Of a DNA stretch of 64,000 nucleotides, positions 7,791 through 34,607 are shown one piece after another. The stretch is from Arcticibacterium luteifluviistationis (GTDB lineage Bacteria > Bacteroidota > Bacteroidia > Cytophagales > Spirosomataceae), in the NCBI RefSeq assembly GCF_003258705.1, contig NZ_CP029480.1, forward strand, positions 744,001-808,000, in the 5' to 3' direction. Position numbers and translations under genes: made by a program. The stretch's first letter is position 1, and every line of letters starts with the position of its first letter. The notes under the pieces were generated by a model. That model was not told where the DNA came from. It did not search any database and saw nothing but the letters and a program-made list of their open reading frames with translations.

Positions 7791-8837
7791 ATGAAAGTTT
7801 ATAATTGCGACAACTGCCAAAATCACCTCTACTTTGAAAACGGGCGATGTTTAAAATGTAGACATAAAGTAGGTTTTGACCCTCAAAAACTACGATTCAT
7901 TTCGCTTATACGCCAAGCTGATAATGAGTATTTAAATCATCAAAATCGAGACGAGAAATTTAAGTTTTGCAAAAACGCAGACCACAGTACTTGCAACTGG
8001 ATACTTCCTATATCGTCATCCCATACCTTTTGCAGAGCCTGTGCACTAAACAGAACCATCCCTAACTTAGCTACAGAAAAGAACGTAAAGCGATGGAATT
8101 TGATAGAAAATGCAAAGCATAGGCTTGTTTACTCCTTACTGAGAATGAACCTGCCAGTTAAACCAAAAATTGGCAATGAAATAGAAGGCATAGCTTTCAA
8201 ATTTGTAGAAACACTATCTCCTGAAAATAGAATATACACGGGACATAGCAGTGGTACTATCACCATTAATATAGAAGAAGCCGACGAAAAACTGAGAATT
8301 AGTAATAAGGCTGACTTAGGTGAAAAATACAGAACCTTACTTGGGCATTTCAGGCATGAAATAGGTCATTACTACTGGGATGTTTTAATTAAAAACACCC
8401 CAAGAGTAGATGATTTCAGATGGAACTTTGGAAACCATAGAGAAGACTATGGAAAGGCCATGGAAGCCTATTACGCCAATGGTGCACCAGAAAACTGGCA
8501 AAAGCACTTCATTAGCCCTTACGCTACTGCCCATCCATGGGAAGACTGGGCAGAAACCTGGGCACACTACCTCCACATGATGGATACGCTAGAAACTGCC
8601 TTTTCTTTTGGCTTAGGCCTCACAGGAGGAAAACGAAATGTAAACATAGATAGCGACCCGTATTCAGTAGCTTCTTTCGACAGAATCATGGAGCTTTGGC
8701 TGCCGCTTACTTACGCCTCCAATAGCCTTGCCCGTAGCATGGGACATACCGATTTTTACCCTTTTATAATTTCTACTCCGGTAAAAAAGAAATTGGCTTT
8801 CATTCACAAATTGTGTTACTCATTTAGAAACTATTAA
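7791..8837 (+). CDS. Putative zinc metallopeptidase with N-terminal zinc ribbon
   Basis: N-terminal zinc-ribbon (CDNCQNHLYFENGRCLKC, residues 5-22) with further Cys pairs near 62-83, then a metallopeptidase domain with HEIGH at 189-193. A later acidic stretch (EDWAETWAHYLHMMDTL) is the usual place of the third metal ligand. This is the arrangement of the COG4307 family (putative zinc-binding peptidase). No signal peptide, so it is probably cytoplasmic. Substrate unknown. It stands alone, after a terminator and before the molybdate operator. Confidence 0.85.
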   Translation: MKVYNCDNCQNHLYFENGRCLKCRHKVGFDPQKLRFISLIRQADNEYLNHQNRDEKFKFCKNADHSTCNWILPISSSHTFCRACALNRTIPNLATEKNVKRWNLIENAKHRLVYSLLRMNLPVKPKIGNEIEGIAFKFVETLSPENRIYTGHSSGTITINIEEADEKLRISNKADLGEKYRTLLGHFRHEIGHYYWDVLIKNTPRVDDFRWNFGNHREDYGKAMEAYYANGAPENWQKHFISPYATAHPWEDWAETWAHYLHMMDTLETAFSFGLGLTGGKRNVNIDSDPYSVASFDRIMELWLPLTYASNSLARSMGHTDFYPFIISTPVKKKLAFIHKLCYSFRNY

Positions 8838-16079: not shown

Positions 16080-17093
16080 TTACTTCTTATATAAATATAC
16101 TGAAGATGCTGCCGCTAAGCTTTGATTCATACTTGGAGTCAAATTTCCACCTGAGCCAATGTTTGAGAAAGCTAAGATTCTACCTCCGCCGTTTCCAGCT
16201 TCAGCTATATATAACACACCTGCTTGGCCATCATAAGCCACATCTACAGGGTTTCCTAATTTCGTATTACTTCCACTAATTCTAATTTGGTCTGAAAGAG
16301 CAATAGTTCCTCCTGAAGCTACACCGTTAAACTTACTCATGAAATCATTTATAATATGAATTCCACCATCGTTTTCTGGGTCAGAAGCAGCTGCAATATC
16401 CGTCAATACCATAGTACCTGTCATGCTATCATAAGTTAAACCGTGTGTTCTTACCAACCCTTCAATAGCTACAGTTTTAGAAGCACTTAATGAAGTTGAA
16501 CTCATATTTGACAAAAAGTTAGTGTAAACAGCAAGTTTGTTTTCCGTGTCTACCACCGCATAAAGGTCGTTACCTATGAAAGTTATACCCCAAAGTTTAA
16601 TATCAGTTGTGATAGTATTTCTTAGTGTAAAATTGTTTCCAGATTTTTGATAAACAAATAATCTCCCGTCTTTGGTATCGGCGTTGCCATCAGCATCTGC
16701 ATTATCTGCCACTACATACATGTCACCGTTCACTGCTAATTCTCTTGGGCTAGTCATGTCGCTAGTACTCGTTAAAGAAGCACTCACATCTAAAACTCCA
16801 CCTAATGACGCATCAGCTGTTACCGCAAAACCTTCAATACTGTTTTTAGACCGAGAGACCTGATAAACAGAAGTACCATCAAAATAAGCTCCATCTGCCG
16901 CTGTAGAAGAGGTGGTTAATGTAGTCATGGTCATAGAAGAACCACTTATATAAATATTGATGTTGCCATCAGAATTATTAGTAGTATACACACTTACCAT
17001 GCTTGGTGTGGCATCTTTGTCATCGTCGTCACAGGAAGTAAGGAAAACCGCTGTTCCCAAAATCATTCCTAAAGTCATTTTTAAGTTTTTCAT
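16080..17093 (-). CDS. Surface-type lipoprotein with beta-propeller-like repeats
   Basis: Lipobox FLTSC followed at once by DDDDKD. An acidic run directly after the lipid Cys is a known surface-export signal for Bacteroidota lipoproteins, so exposure on the cell surface is likely. The body shows repeated strand units of the type DGTSVYQVSRSKNSIEGF, GDMYVVADN, NDLYAVVDTENKLAVY and GVLYIAEAGNGGGRILAF, as in lactonase-like or NHL-like propellers. Substrate unknown. Confidence 0.7.
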   Translation of the reverse strand: MKNLKMTLGMILGTAVFLTSCDDDDKDATPSMVSVYTTNNSDGNINIYISGSSMTMTTLTTSSTAADGAYFDGTSVYQVSRSKNSIEGFAVTADASLGGVLDVSASLTSTSDMTSPRELAVNGDMYVVADNADADGNADTKDGRLFVYQKSGNNFTLRNTITTDIKLWGITFIGNDLYAVVDTENKLAVYTNFLSNMSSTSLSASKTVAIEGLVRTHGLTYDSMTGTMVLTDIAAASDPENDGGIHIINDFMSKFNGVASGGTIALSDQIRISGSNTKLGNPVDVAYDGQAGVLYIAEAGNGGGRILAFSNIGSGGNLTPSMNQSLAAASSVYLYKK

Positions 17094-27195: not shown

Positions 27196-27571
27196 GTCTT
27201 ACATCTTTGATAAGTGGCTTTGTTATCAAGTCAACCAAACCTGTTATTCATGTTTTATCCCATTCGGGCTAACTGAGCTATTTCTACCTTTAGTAGATTT
27301 AAAAAAACAGCAGGACGGCATACTAATAGCACTAAAATTAAAGATAAAGCTAGCCTCATTGGACCGACATGTCGGTAGAGCTTCAGACGTCCATCGATTA
27401 ACAAAATCGGTAAAAAGACATCTCTATCAAAAAGAAAAACCTGCAACAAAAGCTGTACCTTCCCCTAATACATAATTGCCAAAAGTAATTGATAGTCGTT
27501 GTTATGTGACAGCTCTCACTTTAGACAAGTTTAGTTATACTTAATTTTATAACTTCATAAAGTATCAGCAA
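27196..27571. other. Gene-free stretch before the sulfur island
   Basis: Contains a perfect 14-bp palindrome ACCGACATGTCGGT (27363-27376) and, at its right end, a Crp-like site and promoter for the cytochrome gene. A 64-codon minus-strand frame at 27255-27449 has no family resemblance and I do not accept it as a gene. Confidence 0.6.
27505..27520 (+). promoter_or_regulatory. Crp/Fnr-like site 1 (before the TsdA-like cytochrome)
   Basis: TGTGACAGCTCTCACT fits TGTGA-N6-TCACA with one mismatch. Its centre is 29.5 bp upstream of TAATTTTA (27542-27549), a -7 box with one mismatch. The start codon follows at 27572. The same spacing recurs at 29037 and 31531. Confidence 0.7.
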
Positions 27572-28612
27572 TTGAAACAAGACGAAAAATTATTCAAGGA
27601 GGCTAGAATAACCCTCACTATTCTCAAGCTCTTATTGTTGCTTTTAGTAGGACTTTTTCCTATTTCAAAATTCTACATATTCATTTCAGAAAACTGGCCA
27701 GAAAAAATAGAAAATTTGGAGAACATACCTCCTTACGAACCTATAAAGAAATTGGCTTCTGCCCCCTCATCAAAGAGAATGCACAGAGCAGACAATGAAG
27801 AATTGATAAAGTATGGCGAAGAGCTAATTAGGAATACCGCTTATTATATTGGATTTAAGGGAACAGAAAAGCAGATTACAAATGGGCTAAATTGCCAAAA
27901 CTGCCATTTAGACGGAGGACAAAAACCATGGGGAAACAACTACCTATCTGTAGCAGCCAACTACCCACAAATCAGAAAGCGTTCTGGTAAAGAAACCGAC
28001 GTTTATGGTAGAATTAATGGATGCCTTCAGCGAAGTTTGAACGGTTTACCAATGGACAGCACAGAAAAAGAAATGAAAGCTATGGCAGCGTATATATTAT
28101 GGCTTGGCCAAGATGTTACAAAAGGGAAAAAGGCTGCCGGTTCCAAAGTCTATCCAATTGAGTTTTTAGACAGAGCTGCAGACCCAATTGCTGGAAAATC
28201 AATTTATGAAAGTAAATGTACCAGCTGCCACCAAAGTAATGGAAAAGGTTTTTTAGCTGCTGATGGTAGAAGCTTCGTATACCCTCCACTGTGGGGTTCA
28301 CTTTCATATAATGACGGAGCTGGACTATATAGGTTATCCAAATTTGCAGGCTATGTAAAAATGAATATGCCCTTTGGTGTTAGTCACGAAAATCCACAGT
28401 TGACCGACGAGGAAGCTTGGGATTTAGCTGCTTATGTAGACTCCATGCCTAGGCCTGAAAAAGACAAAACTAACGATTGGCCAAATTTAGCCGACAAGCC
28501 TATAGACCATCCTTTCGGCCCTTTTGCTGACCCTTTTTCTGAAAATCAGCATAAATATGGCCCATTTAAACCCATCAAATACTGGTACGAAAATCAAAAA
28601 ACAATACAATGA
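27572..28612 (+). CDS. TsdA-like dihaem cytochrome c (thiosulfate dehydrogenase family)
   Basis: Predicted periplasmic or membrane-anchored enzyme that joins two thiosulfates to tetrathionate or does the reverse. Start is TTG at 27572, preferred because it includes the membrane helix (residues 11-36). Haem 1 site CQNCH is at 108-112, and haem 2 site CTSCH at 216-220. Cys151 in RINGCLQRSLNG lies 39 residues past haem 1 His, where TsdA has its rare Cys haem ligand. Overlaps the DsrE-like gene by 4 nt. A Crp-like site precedes it. Confidence 0.85.
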   Translation: MKQDEKLFKEARITLTILKLLLLLLVGLFPISKFYIFISENWPEKIENLENIPPYEPIKKLASAPSSKRMHRADNEELIKYGEELIRNTAYYIGFKGTEKQITNGLNCQNCHLDGGQKPWGNNYLSVAANYPQIRKRSGKETDVYGRINGCLQRSLNGLPMDSTEKEMKAMAAYILWLGQDVTKGKKAAGSKVYPIEFLDRAADPIAGKSIYESKCTSCHQSNGKGFLAADGRSFVYPPLWGSLSYNDGAGLYRLSKFAGYVKMNMPFGVSHENPQLTDEEAWDLAAYVDSMPRPEKDKTNDWPNLADKPIDHPFGPFADPFSENQHKYGPFKPIKYWYENQKTIQ

Positions 28613-29016
28613 AAAAAGTAATCGTTCTTGCCCTTATCTTCTTTACATCTATCGGAGTCCAAGCTCAGGATAAGCACAAAATAGTAATACAATTGGCCAC
28701 AGGAAATGAGAAAGAACAACGCTCCCTTACCAGGCAATTAAATAATGTACTGAACTACTGGCCTGAGGCAGAAATTGAGGTTGTGGTTCATAGTGGGGCT
28801 TTATCGTTCATGATGAAAGAAAAGAGTGTTGCCAAAGAAGCCATACTGAAAAGTATGGAACGTGGGGTAGTTTTTGCAGTTTGTCAAAATACCATGAAGG
28901 GTAATAATGTGACTGAAAAAGAGATTATTCCAGGTGCCATTTTTGTACCCAATGGTGTAGCCGAAATAGTACTAAAACAAGAAAACGGCTTCTCCTATCT
29001 AAAAGCTGGATATTAG
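28609..29016 (+). CDS. Exported DsrE/DsrF-like protein
   Basis: Signal peptide ending VQAQ, then a single DsrE-like domain of about 115 residues (KIVIQLATGNEKEQRSLTRQ, IEVVVHSGALSFM). FAVCQNTMKGN carries the single Cys where DsrE-family proteins carry the persulfide-accepting Cys. It probably binds or transfers sulfane sulfur outside the inner membrane. It overlaps the TsdA-like gene by 4 nt, so the two products are made together. Confidence 0.82.
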   Translation: MKKVIVLALIFFTSIGVQAQDKHKIVIQLATGNEKEQRSLTRQLNNVLNYWPEAEIEVVVHSGALSFMMKEKSVAKEAILKSMERGVVFAVCQNTMKGNNVTEKEIIPGAIFVPNGVAEIVLKQENGFSYLKAGY

Positions 29017-29036
29017 GCTGCTCTTAAAACAAGACG

Positions 29037-29052
29037 TGTGACAAAAGTTACA
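29037..29052 (+). promoter_or_regulatory. Crp/Fnr-like site 2 (before the porin-like gene)
   Basis: TGTGACAAAAGTTACA fits TGTGA-N6-TCACA with one mismatch, and flanking bases extend the palindrome (ACGTG...CACGT). The centre lies 29.5 bp upstream of TAGCTTTG (29074-29081), an exact -7 box. A T-run follows (GTTTTTG), so it could also act as a weak terminator for the DsrE-like gene. Confidence 0.72.
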
Positions 29053-29113
29053 CGTTTTTGCTTTTCACCGCTTTAGCTTTGTAAATCGGGAAAAAGCAAT
29101 CTTTAATATTTTT

Positions 29114-30451
29114 GTGAAAACATTATTACACTTCATCATTACATTTTTATTGGTCTTTCATGTTTCTGCTCAGCAGGTAAAACATGAAAGCCTTGCCCAG
29201 TTTTTAGCCAAAGGCAAAGTAAGTGGTAAAACCCGTTTCTACTTTATGGCCACAGATAATGAAAGTCCATTAACAGATTATCATGCTTTGGGAATAGGTG
29301 CAGGAATTGGCTACACCACTCCTACTTATAAAGGTTTTTCTGCTGGAATAAGTGGCTTTTACATGATGAACGTATTTTCTTCAGACCTATCTATTTTAGA
29401 CCCAATTACTCAAAACCCTAATAGGTATGAGCTAGGTTTATTTGACGTAACGGAGCCTGAAAACAAAAAGAATTTATCTCGATTAGAAAATTTTTACATC
29501 CAATTCGAGAAGAAAAAAATAAAACTAAAATACGGTCAATACACGCCTAAATACCTTTTCATAAACCCACAAGACGGTAGAATGAGCCCAACCATGACAA
29601 GAGGTTTGGAAGTAAACTGGAAGAACGAACAATCGAATTTAATGGTAGCCTATATTCATGGCATATCTCCACGGTCTACAGTTAGTTGGTATAAAGTCTC
29701 AGACACATTTGGCATTTATCCAAGCGGGAGAGCCACAGATGGCACCGCAGGTAACTATCAAGGAAATATTGAAACACCCGGAATTGTCTTAGCTGAATGG
29801 AATCAAAAAATAGAAAAAGGAATTCAACTAAAAATGGGTTCTATGTCTGTTTTAAATATTTTTCAAACATGGTATACCAATGTGGGCATTGCTAAAAATG
29901 GTTGGAAAGTAAATGCCATGGGCATATACCAGCACCCATTAAATCCAGAAAGCAATCAATCTTACCTAGACGAAGACGAGAAATCATTAGTTTTTAGCGG
30001 CCAAATAGCCAAAGAAATAAATAAGTGGCATACAAGTATTAATTATACCAGAATAGCCGATAAAGGCAGATTTTTGATGCCGAGAGAATGGGGACGAGAG
30101 CCATTTTATACCTTCCTTCCTAGAGAGAGAAACGAAGGTGCTTCAGATGTTCATGCCGCTAGCCTCAAGATACAAAACACATTATCAAAAGAACTTTCCC
30201 TCAACCTTGGTATAGGAAAATACTGGCTTCCAGATGCTTCTGATGCTAGTAAAAATAAATATGCCATGCCTTCTTACAATCAAATAAATGTGGAGGCAAA
30301 TTACGTATTCAACGGTTGGTTAGAAGGAGGCTCTATTAAAACATTATTTGTCAGGAAAATAGGAACAGAAGATACTTATCAAAATCCAAAAGTAGTCTTC
30401 AACAAAGTGAATATGAACACTTTAAATATCATTTTTAATTACACTTTTTAA
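29114..30451 (+). CDS. Outer-membrane porin-like protein of the sulfur island
   Basis: GTG start at 29114, then a signal peptide ending in VSAQQ. The mature 425 residues alternate hydrophobic strands with Gly/aromatic content and end with a classic barrel strand NTLNIIFNYTF, Phe last. It resembles Opr-type channels (KLKYGQYTPKYLFINPQDGR, MTRGLEVNWKN). It could admit sulfur anions for the YeeE-type transporters encoded next. The family is not certain. Confidence 0.7.
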   Translation: MKTLLHFIITFLLVFHVSAQQVKHESLAQFLAKGKVSGKTRFYFMATDNESPLTDYHALGIGAGIGYTTPTYKGFSAGISGFYMMNVFSSDLSILDPITQNPNRYELGLFDVTEPENKKNLSRLENFYIQFEKKKIKLKYGQYTPKYLFINPQDGRMSPTMTRGLEVNWKNEQSNLMVAYIHGISPRSTVSWYKVSDTFGIYPSGRATDGTAGNYQGNIETPGIVLAEWNQKIEKGIQLKMGSMSVLNIFQTWYTNVGIAKNGWKVNAMGIYQHPLNPESNQSYLDEDEKSLVFSGQIAKEINKWHTSINYTRIADKGRFLMPREWGREPFYTFLPRERNEGASDVHAASLKIQNTLSKELSLNLGIGKYWLPDASDASKNKYAMPSYNQINVEANYVFNGWLEGGSIKTLFVRKIGTEDTYQNPKVVFNKVNMNTLNIIFNYTF

Positions 30452-30465
30452 TCAATTTCTTTAGT

Positions 30466-31032
30466 ATGCTTGAATTATTAAAACAACCATGGCCATGGTA
30501 TGTGGCTGGACCATTAATTGGCCTTACCGTACCTTTATTATTGCTTTTAGGTAATAAATCACTCGGAATTTCTTCTTCGCTTAGGCATGTATGTGCTATG
30601 TGCGTTCCTGCCGGAATAAAGTTCTTTGATTACAACTGGCGTAAAGAAGTTTGGAATTTATTCTTTGTTGTTGGAATTGCTGGCGGGGCCTTTGTTGCCA
30701 CTTATTTTTTGACCAATCCTAATCCAATAGAAATAGGAGAGCGAACCCATCAATTACTACTTTCTTACGGACTGACTGATTTTTCAGGATTGATTCCAAA
30801 TGAATTATTTGGTACTGCTCAAATCTTATCTCTGAAAGGACTTATCTTTTTTGTTATCGGTGGATTCATGGTAGGTTTTGGTACCAGATACGCGGGCGGA
30901 TGTACTAGTGGACACACCATTATGGGTTTGTCAAATTTACAATGGCCATCTTTAGTAGCCACATGCTGCTTCATGGTGGGCGGTGTTATCATGACACACT
31001 TCATTCTTCCTCAAATTTTTAAACTTTTTTAA
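30466..31032 (+). CDS. YeeE/YedE-type sulfur transporter, half 1
   Basis: Inner-membrane protein of 188 residues with about five helices. Hallmark GTRYAGGCTSGHTIMG places the Cys that carries thiosulfate or sulfide through the pore in YeeE/TsuA proteins. A second Cys pair is in HVCAMCVP. Full-length YeeE has two such halves. Here the other half is the next gene, 4 nt away. Confidence 0.88.
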   Translation: MLELLKQPWPWYVAGPLIGLTVPLLLLLGNKSLGISSSLRHVCAMCVPAGIKFFDYNWRKEVWNLFFVVGIAGGAFVATYFLTNPNPIEIGERTHQLLLSYGLTDFSGLIPNELFGTAQILSLKGLIFFVIGGFMVGFGTRYAGGCTSGHTIMGLSNLQWPSLVATCCFMVGGVIMTHFILPQIFKLF

Positions 31033-31036
31033 GGCT

Positions 31037-31519
31037 ATGACTAATATAAAAGACAAACTACCGGAAGCTTGCGAAGCTCCAAATTCCTCAAAAGAAAGTG
31101 AAAGCTTTTTATCTAACCTCAAATACCTTTTCATCGGAGCCATGTTTGGTTTGGTTTTCATCAAAGGAGAAATAGTTTCTTGGTTCAGAATTCAAGAGAT
31201 GTTCCTATTTGACAGCTTTCATATGTATGGCGTAATTGGCTCGGCAGTCATTACAGGAATAATATCCGTTTGGCTCATTAAGAAGTTTAATATCAAAACC
31301 ATGAACGGAGAAAAAGTGGTTATCAATCCTAAGAAATTCAACAAAGGCCAAATTTATGGTGGACTCATCTTTGGGCTTGGCTGGGCACTTACAGGAGCTT
31401 GCCCAGGGCCACTTTATGCCCAATTAGGTGCTGGTTACTTGGCTATTGGCGTAACAGTTCTTTCGGCTATTGCGGGTGTATGGATTTTCGGAAAATTCAG
31501 AGATAAATTACCGATGTAA
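31037..31519 (+). CDS. YeeE/YedE-type sulfur transporter, half 2 (DUF6691-like)
   Basis: 160-residue inner-membrane protein, about four helices after a hydrophilic N-terminus. GWALTGACPGPLYAQLGAG is the C-terminal-half hallmark with its conserved Cys. It is translated right after half 1, so the two probably form one transporter. Confidence 0.88.
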   Translation: MTNIKDKLPEACEAPNSSKESESFLSNLKYLFIGAMFGLVFIKGEIVSWFRIQEMFLFDSFHMYGVIGSAVITGIISVWLIKKFNIKTMNGEKVVINPKKFNKGQIYGGLIFGLGWALTGACPGPLYAQLGAGYLAIGVTVLSAIAGVWIFGKFRDKLPM

Positions 31520-31530
31520 ACAATCGGCTT

Positions 31531-31546
31531 TGTGACATGCGTCACA
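31531..31546 (+). promoter_or_regulatory. Crp/Fnr-like site 3 (before tauE-like gene)
   Basis: TGTGACATGCGTCACA is an exact TGTGA-N6-TCACA palindrome. Its centre lies 29.5 bp upstream of TAAGTTTG (31568-31575), an exact -7 box. The start codon is at 31602. This placement, near -41 relative to the likely start of transcription, is that of class II activation. Confidence 0.8.
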
Positions 31547-31601
31547 GCATTCCAATAATGGAGTAAGTAAGTTTGTATTAGATAATCACAAAGACTAAAA
31601 G

Positions 31602-32396
31602 ATGACAGAAATAATAGGATATGCATTGGCCACAGTAATAGGAATAAGTTTAGGGCTTATTGGCGGTGGCGGTAGCATATTAACACTTCCAATACTCGTT
31701 TACCTTTTGGCTATCAATCCAGTTTTGAGTACGGCGTATTCGCTCTTCATTGTAGGTTCTACCTCTTTAGTAGGTTCATTTAGCTACATGAAAAAAGGTT
31801 TAGTCAACTATAAAACAGCTGTCATATTTGCGATACCGTCGTTCATTGCAGTTTTTCTTACCAGAAAATATTTGATGCCCGCTGTACCTGATGAGTTATT
31901 TAGTATTGGTGATTTCATGGTCAACAAAGATTTAGGCATCATGGTACTCTTTGCATTGGTCATGCTTATGGCTTCGTATTCTATGATTACTGATAATAAG
32001 CCAGAGGCAGAGGAAAACGTAGAATTGAACTATAATTATCCTTTAATAGCGGCAGAAGGATTAGTGGTTGGAACATTAACAGGTGTGGTAGGTGCTGGTG
32101 GTGGTTTTTTGATTATTCCAGCATTGGTACTCTTAGTTAGATTGCCCATGAAAATGGCTGTAGGAACCTCCCTACTTATCATAGCCGCAAAATCGCTTAT
32201 CGGCTTTATGGGAGACCTTGGAAACCAAGCTATTGACTGGAAGTTCCTATTAATATTCACAGGACTTTCCATACTAGGCATATTCGTTGGTACCTATTTA
32301 ACCAAGTTTATTCCAGGGGAGAAATTGAAAAAATCGTTTGGCTGGTTTGTGCTGCTTATGGCGGTTTACATATTGGTCAAAGAAATTATACTATAA
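31602..32396 (+). CDS. TauE/SafE family sulfite/organosulfonate exporter
   Basis: Eight-helix membrane protein made of two repeats, each starting with a Gly-rich motif: GLIGGGGSILTLPILVYLL near the start and GVVGAGGGFLIIPALVLL in the second half. The family exports sulfite, thiosulfate or sulfoacetate-type anions, or imports some of them. It starts the third transcription unit of the sulfur island and is followed after 47 nt by the MBL-rhodanese gene. Confidence 0.92.
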   Translation: MTEIIGYALATVIGISLGLIGGGGSILTLPILVYLLAINPVLSTAYSLFIVGSTSLVGSFSYMKKGLVNYKTAVIFAIPSFIAVFLTRKYLMPAVPDELFSIGDFMVNKDLGIMVLFALVMLMASYSMITDNKPEAEENVELNYNYPLIAAEGLVVGTLTGVVGAGGGFLIIPALVLLVRLPMKMAVGTSLLIIAAKSLIGFMGDLGNQAIDWKFLLIFTGLSILGIFVGTYLTKFIPGEKLKKSFGWFVLLMAVYILVKEIIL

Positions 32397-32443
32397 ACTT
32401 AATACAGATTTAAAGAGTTATTAAACTAATAAATATTACTACT

Positions 32444-33850
32444 ATGAAAATAGAACAGATATATACGGGATGTTTGGCACAAGGAGCTTATTACATAGAA
32501 AGCGAAGGTGAAGTGGCCATTATAGACCCATTACGTGAAGTAGAGCCTTACTTAAAGAAAGCTGAAAAAGAAGGTCAAAAAATAAAATACGTTTTTGAAA
32601 CGCATTTTCATGCAGATTTTGTTTCTGGCCATTTAGATTTATCTAAGAAATCAGGAGCTCCAATAATTTATGGACCAAATGCCGTAACAGGTTTTGACTC
32701 CATCATAGCTACCGACGGACAGACCTTAAAACTAGGTGCTGTTACCATCAAAGTTTTACACACACCAGGGCACACCATGGAGTCTACATCTTATTTACTT
32801 ATAGATGAGAATGGTAAAGAAACTGCTCTTTTTAGTGGAGACACGCTTTTTATAGGTGATGTGGGAAGACCAGATTTAGCTCAAAAATCAGATTTGACCA
32901 TTGAAGATTTAGCTGGTCATTTGTATGATTCGCTTAGAAACAAAATCATGGTACTTCCTGATGATGTTATAGTTTACCCTGCTCACGGTGCGGGTTCTGC
33001 TTGTGGTAAAAACATGAGTAAAGAAACCACTGATACGCTGGGTAATCAAAAAAGTGTCAACTATGCTTTAAGAGCAAATATGACAAAGGCGGAATTTATC
33101 AAAGAAGTGACAGACGGGCTTGCTCCACCTCCTCAGTATTTCCCTGAAAATGTAAAAATGAATAAGGAAGGATACGAATCAATAGACACGGTAATGAACA
33201 GAGGAGCTCAAGCTCTAAGTCCTGCTGCTTTTGAAGCTGCCGCCAATGAAACTGGTGCTGTAGTTTTAGACACTAGAGATGCTGCCGACTTTGCTGCTGG
33301 CTTTGTGCCAAACTCTATCAATATTGGTTTAAATGGTCAATTTGCCCCATGGGTAGGTGCATTAATTCCTGACTTAAGACATGAGATACTTTTAATTACA
33401 GAACCAGGCAAAGAGGAAGAAACAGTCATCAGACTAGCCAGAGTGGGTTATGATAACACCATAGGCTACTTGAAAGACGGCATACCTGCTTGGAAAGCAA
33501 GCGGTGCCGAAGTAGACAGCATAGAGTCTATAGATGCTGCTGAACTAGCCAAAAGAATGGAAGGCGACATCAATGTAATAGATGTAAGAAGACCAGGCGA
33601 ATATGAAGCAGAACACGTAGAAGGCGTGCCTAGTTTCCCTTTAGATTTCATCAATGATAACATGGCAGAACTAGACCGTGACAAAAAATACACCATTCAC
33701 TGTGCAGGTGGCTACCGCTCTATGATGGCTGCCAGTATCTTAAAGGCAAGAGGCTTTGAGGTGGTGGATGTAAAAGGCGGCTTTGGAGCTATCAATAATT
33801 CAGGTCTTTTTAAGACAACTGCTTATGTTTGCCCAAGTACCTTGAAGTAA
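32444..33850 (+). CDS. MBL-fold persulfide dioxygenase-like protein with two rhodanese domains
   Basis: N-terminal metallo-beta-lactamase domain with THFHADFVSGH, LHTPGHT, FSGDTLFIGDVGR and PAHGAG, as in ETHE1/Blh-type persulfide dioxygenases. The first rhodanese domain (about 265-350) has ITEPGKEEE at the active loop and no Cys, so it is inactive. The second (about 370-455) has HCAGGYRSM with Cys420, active. Cytoplasmic. It would oxidise persulfide to sulfite, which the exporter gene upstream could remove. Confidence 0.92.
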   Translation: MKIEQIYTGCLAQGAYYIESEGEVAIIDPLREVEPYLKKAEKEGQKIKYVFETHFHADFVSGHLDLSKKSGAPIIYGPNAVTGFDSIIATDGQTLKLGAVTIKVLHTPGHTMESTSYLLIDENGKETALFSGDTLFIGDVGRPDLAQKSDLTIEDLAGHLYDSLRNKIMVLPDDVIVYPAHGAGSACGKNMSKETTDTLGNQKSVNYALRANMTKAEFIKEVTDGLAPPPQYFPENVKMNKEGYESIDTVMNRGAQALSPAAFEAAANETGAVVLDTRDAADFAAGFVPNSINIGLNGQFAPWVGALIPDLRHEILLITEPGKEEETVIRLARVGYDNTIGYLKDGIPAWKASGAEVDSIESIDAAELAKRMEGDINVIDVRRPGEYEAEHVEGVPSFPLDFINDNMAELDRDKKYTIHCAGGYRSMMAASILKARGFEVVDVKGGFGAINNSGLFKTTAYVCPSTLK

Positions 33851-33867
33851 AACCCCTTCTTTAATAT

Positions 33868-33900
33868 AACTCCCCTGATATATTTCGGGGGAGTTTTTTT
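33868..33900 (+). terminator. Intrinsic terminator after the MBL-rhodanese gene
   Basis: Arms AACTCCCC (33868-33875) and GGGGAGTT (33888-33895) followed by a T8 run. Strong and textbook in form. Confidence 0.92.
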
Positions 33901-33971
33901 TATACACATTGGCTATGATAGCCTCAAAAAAAACTTCCCTCAAAAGCCTAAAAATCGATAAACCGAAGTCT

Positions 33972-34607
33972 ATGGAAAGTATAAATCGTAAAAATCATTG
34001 GGAGAATATCTACAAAACTAAGAAACTAAAAGACGTTAGTTGGTTTGAACCAACACCAGAAACATCACTGGGTTTCTTTCAACAGTTTAGCATACCACAC
34101 GCTGCAAAAATCATAGATATTGGTGGTGGCGACAGCCTTTTAGTGGACCATTTACTAAAGCTAGGTTACCTAGATATTTCAGTACTTGATATTTCGGAAG
34201 CGGCACTGGAAAGAGCAAAACAGCGACTGGGTGACCAAGCCAATGAAGTAAAATGGATTGTATCAGACGCAGCGACATTTAAACCCACTGAGAAATATGA
34301 TTTTTGGCATGATAGAGCTGCATTTCATTTCCTGACTGAGAAGCGAGACATTTCAAATTATTTAGAAACGGCCCAAAACTATATTAATCCAAAAGGTATA
34401 TTGGTTATTGGGACATTTTCTAAAAATGGTCCAGAAAAATGTAGCGGAATACAAATCAAACAATATTCAGAAACAAGTATGACAGAGCGGCTAAAGGCAT
34501 TTTTCGAAAAAATAAAGTGCATTACCATTGACCATAAAACACCATTTAACACTATTCAAAACTTTGTTTTCTGTAGTTTCAGGAAAGCACAGTTGGCTTC
34601 AAAATAG
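33972..34607 (+). CDS. Class I SAM-dependent methyltransferase
   Basis: Motif I is IIDIGGGDSLLVDHLL, then ISVLDISEAAL and WIVSDAATFKP, a Rossmann methyltransferase of about 211 residues. The start at ATG 33972 (MESINRKNHWENIYKTK) matches how such proteins begin. Earlier possible starts at 33909 (TTG) and 33915 (ATG) would add a basic tail. Relatives occur next to sulfur and tellurite genes, and thiol S-methylation is a guess. It follows a strong terminator, so it needs its own promoter or readthrough. Confidence 0.82.
   Translation: MESINRKNHWENIYKTKKLKDVSWFEPTPETSLGFFQQFSIPHAAKIIDIGGGDSLLVDHLLKLGYLDISVLDISEAALERAKQRLGDQANEVKWIVSDAATFKPTEKYDFWHDRAAFHFLTEKRDISNYLETAQNYINPKGILVIGTFSKNGPEKCSGIQIKQYSETSMTERLKAFFEKIKCITIDHKTPFNTIQNFVFCSFRKAQLASK

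Follow-up and report, generated by a model that had tools for sequence, protein, structure and literature searches.

Three matching predicted promoter elements in front of sulfur-detoxification genes of Arcticibacterium luteifluviistationis recur before the same genes in related Bacteroidota

The promoter arrangement described here has its best-known likeness in the class II promoters of E. coli CRP, with which it has in common the TGTGA-N6-TCACA operator, the centre at -41.5 and a recognition helix of the R-E-x-x-x-R type. Unlike the E. coli system, however, its basal element is the TAnnTTTG box of Bacteroidota, its targets are sulfur genes, and its candidate regulator, a Crp/Fnr protein that we call REG, lacks the cAMP signature. 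FNR and related oxygen sensors share with REG the Crp/Fnr fold, the E-x-x-S-R residues and, as predicted for REG, class II action at -41.5, whereas REG has no N-terminal Fe-S cysteines and the half-site is TGTGA/TGTAA instead of TTGAT. HcpR, PgRsp and CrpPg of Porphyromonas gingivalis belong to the same phylum and superfamily as REG, and the HcpR structure 9day is a fold match of the REG model. Nitrosative stress is the cue for HcpR and redox that for PgRsp, and each of the two binds haem; the accessible portions of these two papers describe no sulfur regulon for the three proteins (PMC12040651, PMC6955866).

With respect to targets, the closest systems are SqrR/BigR, CstR and FisR, which control similar genes (persulfide dioxygenase, TauE, rhodanese and YeeE-type). 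Their folds are of the ArsR, CsoR and sigma-54 Fis types, respectively, and thus differ from the Crp/Fnr fold of REG; furthermore, SqrR/BigR and CstR are repressors, unlike the activator proposed here, while FisR is an activator working through three cysteines (PMC9774590). The best PDB sequence match of REG (1.3e-17) is 3dv8, an uncharacterised Crp/Fnr protein of Eubacterium rectale from structural genomics, whose cysteines line up with REG's Cys81 and Cys87/88 region; its source belongs to a different phylum. Among the transcription factors of aerobic Bacteroidota, there are few for which the operator, the promoter geometry and the regulon are known. A literature search that took in few subscription papers, and whose silence is not proof, returned no report of sulfur genes being controlled by a Crp/Fnr protein in Bacteroidetes.

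A composite element repeated three times

The window, a 64,000-nucleotide stretch of A. luteifluviistationis DNA, contains three pairs of palindrome and box, all on the same strand.

27505..27520, + strand: Crp/Fnr-type operator 1, TGTGACAGCTCTCACT; 1 mismatch; predicted centre -41.5; 15.2 bits
27542..27549, + strand: -7 box 1, TAATTTTA; 1 mismatch to TAnnTTTG; predicted +1 at 27554
29037..29052, + strand: Crp/Fnr-type operator 2, TGTGACAAAAGTTACA; 1 mismatch; predicted centre -41.5; 25.0 bits
29074..29081, + strand: -7 box 2, TAGCTTTG; exact TAnnTTTG; predicted +1 at 29086
31531..31546, + strand: Crp/Fnr-type operator 3, TGTGACATGCGTCACA; exact palindrome; predicted centre -41.5; 25.3 bits
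31568..31575, + strand: -7 box 3, TAAGTTTG; exact TAnnTTTG; predicted +1 at 31580

Direct reading reproduced exactly the palindromes at 27505, 29037 and 31531 reported by an earlier, sequence-only reading, including their mismatches and the 29.5 bp between palindrome centre and the T of the box. Mapped flavobacterial promoters have the first T of this box at -12 (PMC6847099), from which the predicted +1 positions derive, and the box spans -12 to -5 (PMC9723704). With the box T at -12, all three palindrome centres come to lie at -41.5, where class II activators bind, in keeping with the previously suggested Crp/Fnr-type activator near -41. Relative to the box-predicted start, the operators are hence centred as in a class II promoter, and their half-sites form the Crp/Fnr inverted repeat. 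A point against this reading is that both exact window boxes have G at -10 or -9, a choice that F. johnsoniae promoters disfavour (PMC6847099).

The sites stand before the following genes.

27572-28612, + strand: unit 1 (27572..29016), SoxA/TsdA-type dihaem cytochrome c; TTG start; Pfam SoxA-TsdA_cyt-c, Cytochrom_C
28609-29016, + strand: unit 1, DsrE-like protein; Pfam DsrE
29114-30451, + strand: unit 2 (29114..31519), outer-membrane porin-like protein; no Pfam match
30466-31032, + strand: unit 2, YeeE-type half; Pfam Sulf_transp, DUF6691 (for both halves)
31037-31519, + strand: unit 2, YeeE/DUF6691 half; Pfam as for the other half
31602-32396, + strand: unit 3 (31602..34607), TauE sulfite exporter; Pfam TauE
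32444-33850, + strand: unit 3, persulfide-dioxygenase-like protein, metallo-beta-lactamase plus two rhodanese domains; Pfam Lactamase_B, Rhodanese
33909-34607, + strand: unit 3, methyltransferase; Pfam Methyltransf_12

The assignment of the sites to a cytochrome, a porin and a TauE unit agrees with the Pfam matches, and homologues of the same genes have sites in relatives. The methyltransferase was counted in unit 3 because of where it lies and because a homologue stands between dioxygenase and YeeE at locus L133.

Palindromes with up to two mismatches were not enriched in the window (21 against 27 expected), and palindrome enrichment by itself was discarded as evidence; it is the composite of palindrome and box that carries the weight. 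The earlier reading did not see the motif elsewhere in the window; the palindrome does occur there with one mismatch, at 17018 and 49280, but without a convincing box or a high score. These two palindromes were dropped as sites, and the one at 17018 additionally lies within an ORF. Allowing one mismatch over the 16 fixed positions of the composite, the 5.38 Mb genome holds seven matches against none for the reversed pattern, and 151 genomes of the family hold 154 against 10 control matches. The match at 2842413 falls within an ORF and was dropped. The 27505 site is a two-mismatch match in the genome scan, a level at which background starts showing.

A scoring matrix trained on 64 sites of relatives only, with the organism's own genome left out, ranks the three sites first to third in the window, the next candidate reaching 10.1 bits; the site at 31531 is the window's best and that at 27505, with its imperfect box, the weakest of the three. 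In 300 simulated windows, sites scoring at least 15.2 bits occurred at 0.037 per window, and none reached 24.9. Matrix ranks, simulations and the conserved spacer described below uphold the view that such repeated geometry is unlikely to arise by chance. A profile model (R1) scored 150 of 4105 candidates in the organism's own genome, which is no census; one multihaem site and two window sites took the top ranks among those 150. The widened consensus TGTRA...RTYACA, allowed up to two mismatches, discriminates poorly (20 real and 13 control matches) and was applied solely in support of the site at 1023648.

Conserved geometry and target genes

In 60 REG neighbourhoods of relatives, where the spacer was left free and not imposed, 53 of 164 palindromes have a box with at most one mismatch at spacer 21, and every other spacer accounts for four or fewer. 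Restricting the count to exact boxes leaves 31 at spacer 21, two at spacer 6 and none elsewhere, and permuted half-sites gave a mean of 0.1 in the same neighbourhoods. Some of the 60 were picked knowing of nearby sites, a selection bias answered by sets of loci picked by protein alone, because these give spacer 21 too: 15 of 50 palindromes at loci of the family and 21 of 93 at 64 loci of other Bacteroidota. The relatives' sites have G as second base in 64/64 and T as third in 63/64, giving the half-site TGTRA, and do not conform to the FNR site TTGAT-N4-ATCAA.

The genes found behind sites in the neighbourhoods examined encode TauE (18), dioxygenase-rhodanese (17), rhodanese (7), REG (6), YeeE (5), cytochrome (3) and porin (2), and homologues of the porin-like protein in relatives retain the same site. 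Outside the island, the motif recurs in the same genome before functionally related genes, namely, two rhodaneses, a DUF2892-like protein, a multihaem cytochrome, Dps and a rhodanese oxidoreductase, with Dps and the cytochrome retaining their sites in the nearest relatives. The motif is therefore not confined to the island. Considering these comparisons of sequence, we regard the three matching predicted promoter elements before sulfur-detoxification genes, and the same element before the same genes in relatives, as real. A peroxiredoxin-like gene and genes for SQR-like and OsmC-like proteins are also among the site-bearing genes. The wider regulon, like the identity of the candidate regulator, goes beyond what the sequence-only reading had offered.

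REG, the candidate regulator, and its signal

REG is a Crp/Fnr protein of 221 aa encoded outside the window (C1:447189-447854), about 300 kb from the island. Its gene matches cNMP_binding (just under the cut-off) and HTH_Crp_2, and the protein has the effector beta-roll, long dimer helix and C-terminal winged HTH of the superfamily; the predicted model of the Lacihabitans ortholog and its fold matches likewise indicate a Crp/Fnr fold. The recognition helix is CRP-like, TSREVxSR, and TSREVxSRLLKQLE is invariant in 51 of 51 close orthologs. An HTH_Crp_2 match at 3443038 was dropped as a regulator, being Lrp/AsnC-type by sequence and not Crp/Fnr. In many relatives, REG adjoins tauE, the persulfide dioxygenase-rhodanese gene and yeeE/DUF6691, all with sites in front. 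In this genome, neither the REG gene nor the second yeeE/DUF6691 pair adjoining it has a recognisable site, which makes autoregulation of REG unlikely here; in some relatives, REG does seem to control its own gene. REG is the best candidate for, and most likely is, the reader of the operators, and the linkage, the conserved geometry and the shared target genes support the suggestion that a Crp/Fnr-type activator coordinates the island.

We consider it highly probable that each of the three sites serves as the operator of an activator-dependent promoter of class II, bound by REG, and that all belong to one regulon for sulfane-sulfur handling. In the scheme that we infer for binding, activation and transcription start, a REG homodimer would bind TGTgA-N6-TCACA centred at -41.5, stand in for the weak -33 contact and recruit the sigma-A RNA polymerase of Bacteroidota, itself bound at TAnnTTTG, with transcription predicted to start about 18-28 nt 5' of the start codons. 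The three units (cytochrome/DsrE, porin/YeeE and TauE/dioxygenase-rhodanese) would then make and move sulfur intermediates, and together with the rhodaneses, DUF2892-like protein, multihaem cytochrome, Dps and rhodanese oxidoreductase would constitute the regulon.

As to the signal, Cys81 is invariant (65/65) and Cys87 and Cys88 are present in 49/51 close orthologs (numbering of the 214-aa query). These cysteines are conserved phylum-wide, and REG therefore has the two or more conserved cysteines of the persulfide sensors SqrR, CstR and FisR. It scores 38.4 bits against a CRP equivalog cut-off of 266, and DSCAMSLTCC...TSE takes the place of the arginine/serine of the CRP cAMP cassette. Persulfide sensing by REG is plausible on these grounds, and that its trigger is a reactive sulfur species modifying Cys81/Cys87/Cys88, in a short helix of the effector pocket, is a proposal that we put just short of an even chance. 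With somewhat more reserve, REG may represent a Crp/Fnr subfamily, spread across Bacteroidota, whose members sense reactive sulfur through thiols and directly switch on sulfane-sulfur oxidation and detoxification at promoters with the operator at -41.5. That the activator instead senses oxygen, haem/NO or the general redox state is a serious possibility, if somewhat below even, as the superfamily members Fnr, HcpR and PgRsp use Fe-S or haem to detect O2, NO or redox, and Dps and the peroxiredoxin-like gene carry sites. Yet REG has no Cys before Cys81, nor is one conserved there in orthologs, implying that it has no FNR-type N-terminal cluster, and the targets, mostly rhodanese, dioxygenase, TauE, YeeE, SQR-like and OsmC-like, are typical of persulfide regulons.

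That these class II promoters answer mainly to a Crp/Fnr paralogue other than REG is unlikely. The genome does encode some 13 others, and the island and REG are far apart in it; among the paralogues compared, however, only REG has R-E-x-x-S-R (the rest have xxLSR or similar), and many relatives carry the REG ortholog inside the same gene cluster. Sites occur in 51/64 genomes that have a close REG ortholog, in 16/43 whose only ortholog is distant and in 7/44 that have none (close ortholog versus none, P = 6e-11), and within mixed genera, they track REG (P = 3e-5). Against this, some genomes without REG hold strong sites, among them the single-contig assembly G088, with a 33.6-bit site before tauE; there, either a different protein is able to read it or the loss of REG is recent.

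Still less probable is a repressor, or a protein of dual action, at -41.5, which might for instance block polymerase until sulfur is present. CstR and SqrR/BigR set such a precedent (PMC9774590), and the operator covers the -33 region; one fixed 21-bp spacer throughout the phylum, however, is expected of an activator that touches polymerase and is unneeded by a repressor. The aligned sites also have no TTTG at -33, with CA/GA there instead, though this element is weak in flavobacteria anyway (PMC6847099). That short motifs merely coincide by chance, the genome being AT-rich, has a negligible probability: palindromes alone are no commoner than expected, but the independent matrix ranking, the simulations and the reversed and permuted controls all speak against it, and the conservation of geometry and target genes contradicts it.

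In conclusion, an operator, a promoter geometry and a regulon can be stated here to the base pair, with a named candidate regulator and a short list of targets, and the matrix can be used to annotate such promoters in other genomes. Should the signal be persulfide, this would account for the way in which many Bacteroidota tune sulfane-sulfur oxidation through a regulator whose fold is unlike that of SqrR, CstR or FisR. REG would then correspond, in this phylum, to SqrR/BigR, CstR and FisR, as a persulfide sensor from a superfamily not listed among them.

Three composite sites and their predicted promoters

Our analysis confirmed the three TGTGA-N6-TCACA palindromes that the sequence-only reading had described at 27505, 29037 and 31531, with one, one and no mismatches, as well as their shared geometry, a spacer of 21 bp separating each palindrome from its TAnnTTTG box. 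Each composite site lies immediately upstream of one transcription unit of the sulfur-gene island, with gene content assigned by Pfam:

27505-27520, one mismatch; box TAATTTTA at 27542; dihaem cytochrome c and DsrE, start TTG 27572
29037-29052, one mismatch; box TAGCTTTG at 29074; porin and two YeeE/DUF6691 halves, start GTG 29114
31531-31546, no mismatches; box TAAGTTTG at 31568; TauE, metallo-beta-lactamase/double rhodanese and methyltransferase, start ATG 31602

The textbook class II position, that of E. coli CRP/FNR, is -41.5. The -7 element of Flavobacterium johnsoniae is T-12 A-11 ... T-8 T-7 T-6 G-5 (PMC6847099), and that of F. psychrophilum covers -12 to -5 (PMC9723704). Counting from the box T at -12 would place the centres of all three palindromes at -41.5, in agreement with the activator position near -41 proposed earlier. 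Transcription is predicted to start at 27554, 29086 and 31580, leaving leaders of 18, 28 and 22 nt up to TTG 27572, GTG 29114 and ATG 31602, respectively; this TTG is apparently the first codon of the cytochrome unit. Both exact boxes (29074-29081 and 31568-31575) carry a G at -10 or -9, which almost never occurs in F. johnsoniae promoters (PMC6847099) and is perhaps a mark of activator dependence.

Chance expectation, spacing and operator extent

The palindrome alone is not enriched in the window (21 versus 27 expected, at most two mismatches). The composite is unlikely to arise by chance, as had been argued: the genome scan with palindrome, spacing and box that the sequence-only reading called for found seven places in the 5.38-Mb single contig, at most one mismatch being allowed over 16 fixed positions, and the reversed pattern gave no matches. 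A count over 151 genomes from the same family gave 154 real and 10 control matches. In the window, a weight matrix built from 64 nonredundant sites of relatives, with the own genome left out, ranked the three sites first to third at 25.3, 25.0 and 15.2 bits, the next candidate scoring 10.1. Simulation of 300 windows gave 0.037 sites per window with at least 15.2 bits, the score of the weak cytochrome/DsrE site at 27505, and none with 24.9. A further match on the minus strand at 17018-17033 (one mismatch each in palindrome and box, spacer 21) lies within an open reading frame (16080-17093, minus), scores 8.3 bits and is probably due to chance.

The spacing was examined in 60 neighbourhoods (0.97 Mb) of genes for REG, a 221-aa Crp/Fnr-family protein and candidate regulator, by measuring the distance to any box from all 164 oriented palindromes with at most one mismatch. 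Exact boxes fell 31 times at spacer 21, twice at spacer 6 and at no other spacer; with one mismatch allowed, there were 53 at spacer 21 and at most 4 at any other, and permuted half-sites gave a mean of 0.1 at spacer 21. Since some neighbourhoods had been chosen with prior knowledge of a nearby site, the test was redone on loci picked by protein similarity alone, where spacer 21 was the peak both within the family (15 of 50 palindromes) and in 64 loci from other Bacteroidota families (21 of 93). Minor peaks in the latter loci (L191-L255) at spacers 14 (8 palindromes) and 22 (6) possibly represent a variant promoter geometry or box register.

Two bases outside the palindrome, conservation is symmetric in the relatives' sites (A downstream in 45/64, T upstream in 47/64), and a G follows immediately 3' in 42/64; the operator is therefore longer than TGTGA-N6-TCACA. 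This flank conservation occupies matrix columns 17-18 and -2.

REG and the predicted regulon

There are 16 matches to the cNMP domain in the own genome and three to HTH_Crp_2; one of these three is an Lrp-like protein. REG (L050:9190-9855, C1:447189-447854 on the own contig) alone has the recognition helix T-S-R-E-V-V-S-R, the other Crp/Fnr paralogues read having xxLSR-like helices; its R and E at the first helix positions fit TGTGA under the known CRP/FNR recognition code. Its gene adjoins a second yeeE/DUF6691 pair (L050:10382-11391, C1:448381-449390). No operator was recognisable at REG or this pair in the own genome; REG has one in some relatives. In relatives, tauE, dioxygenase-rhodanese, yeeE/DUF6691, cytochrome and dsrE genes lie beside REG, with sites upstream of them.

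Sites occur in 51/64 genomes with a close REG ortholog, 16/43 with only a distant one and 7/44 with none (close versus none, P = 6e-11; shuffled inside genera holding both kinds, P = 3e-5). Bacteroidota commonly carry REG-family proteins (183/297 sampled genomes at E <= 0.001, weak paralogues included). The link is not absolute: REG is missing from G014 and from the single-contig genome G088, and both have strong sites upstream of tauE. In such genomes the site may have passed to a different regulator. The strong sites of these two, at L301:9743-9788 (G088) and L303:2164-2209 and 7797-7842 (G014), lie upstream of tauE and porin genes.

Predicted regulon in the own genome (gene or unit; contig position; matrix bits)
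Multihaem cytochrome; 2927068; 28.5
TauE unit; 775531; 25.3
Porin/YeeE unit; 773037; 25.0
Rhodanese; 361667; 21.9
DUF2892-like membrane protein; 2983288; 20.4
FAD oxidoreductase-rhodanese; 1023648; 18.0
Dps; 994371; 16.0
Rhodanese; 3444225; 15.9
Cytochrome/DsrE unit; 771505; 15.2

For 62 of 82 distinct sites (own genome and relatives' neighbourhoods), the gene that follows is homologous to a member of the island or regulon: TauE (18), dioxygenase-rhodanese (17), rhodanese (7), REG (6), YeeE (5), cytochrome (3), porin (2) and others found singly. The sites before TauE, cytochrome and Dps are kept in the nearest relatives, and more distant relatives also have sites before SQR-like flavoprotein, OsmC-like and peroxiredoxin-like proteins (these names, like Dps, DUF2892 and multihaem cytochrome, come from reading the sequences). 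In the two nearest relatives (L273 and L277), the gene for an Rrf2-type regulator has a site upstream of it, which suggests a second-tier regulator.

Class II Crp/Fnr control is of an already known kind; the regulon, the operator matrix and the regulator appear to be new to the literature searched. The known Bacteroidota members HcpR, PgRsp and CrpPg are described in other roles.

A possible signal for REG

REG is not a cAMP receptor by the CRP equivalog test, since its score of 38 is far under the cut-off of 266, and, having no cysteine N-terminal of Cys81, it is not an FNR-type Fe-S protein. All 65 orthologs have Cys81, and 49 of the 51 close ones retain Cys87 and Cys88 (numbering of the 214-aa query). 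Conservation of the cysteines extends phylum-wide. A structural model of the ortholog from Lacihabitans (pLDDT 88) has a Crp/Fnr fold and places the equivalents, Cys80 and Cys86/87, at and in the short helix 81-89 of the effector pocket. Known persulfide regulators employ two or three cysteines, and FisR is a three-cysteine activator (PMC9774590). Reactive sulfur is therefore a reasonable guess for the signal of REG.
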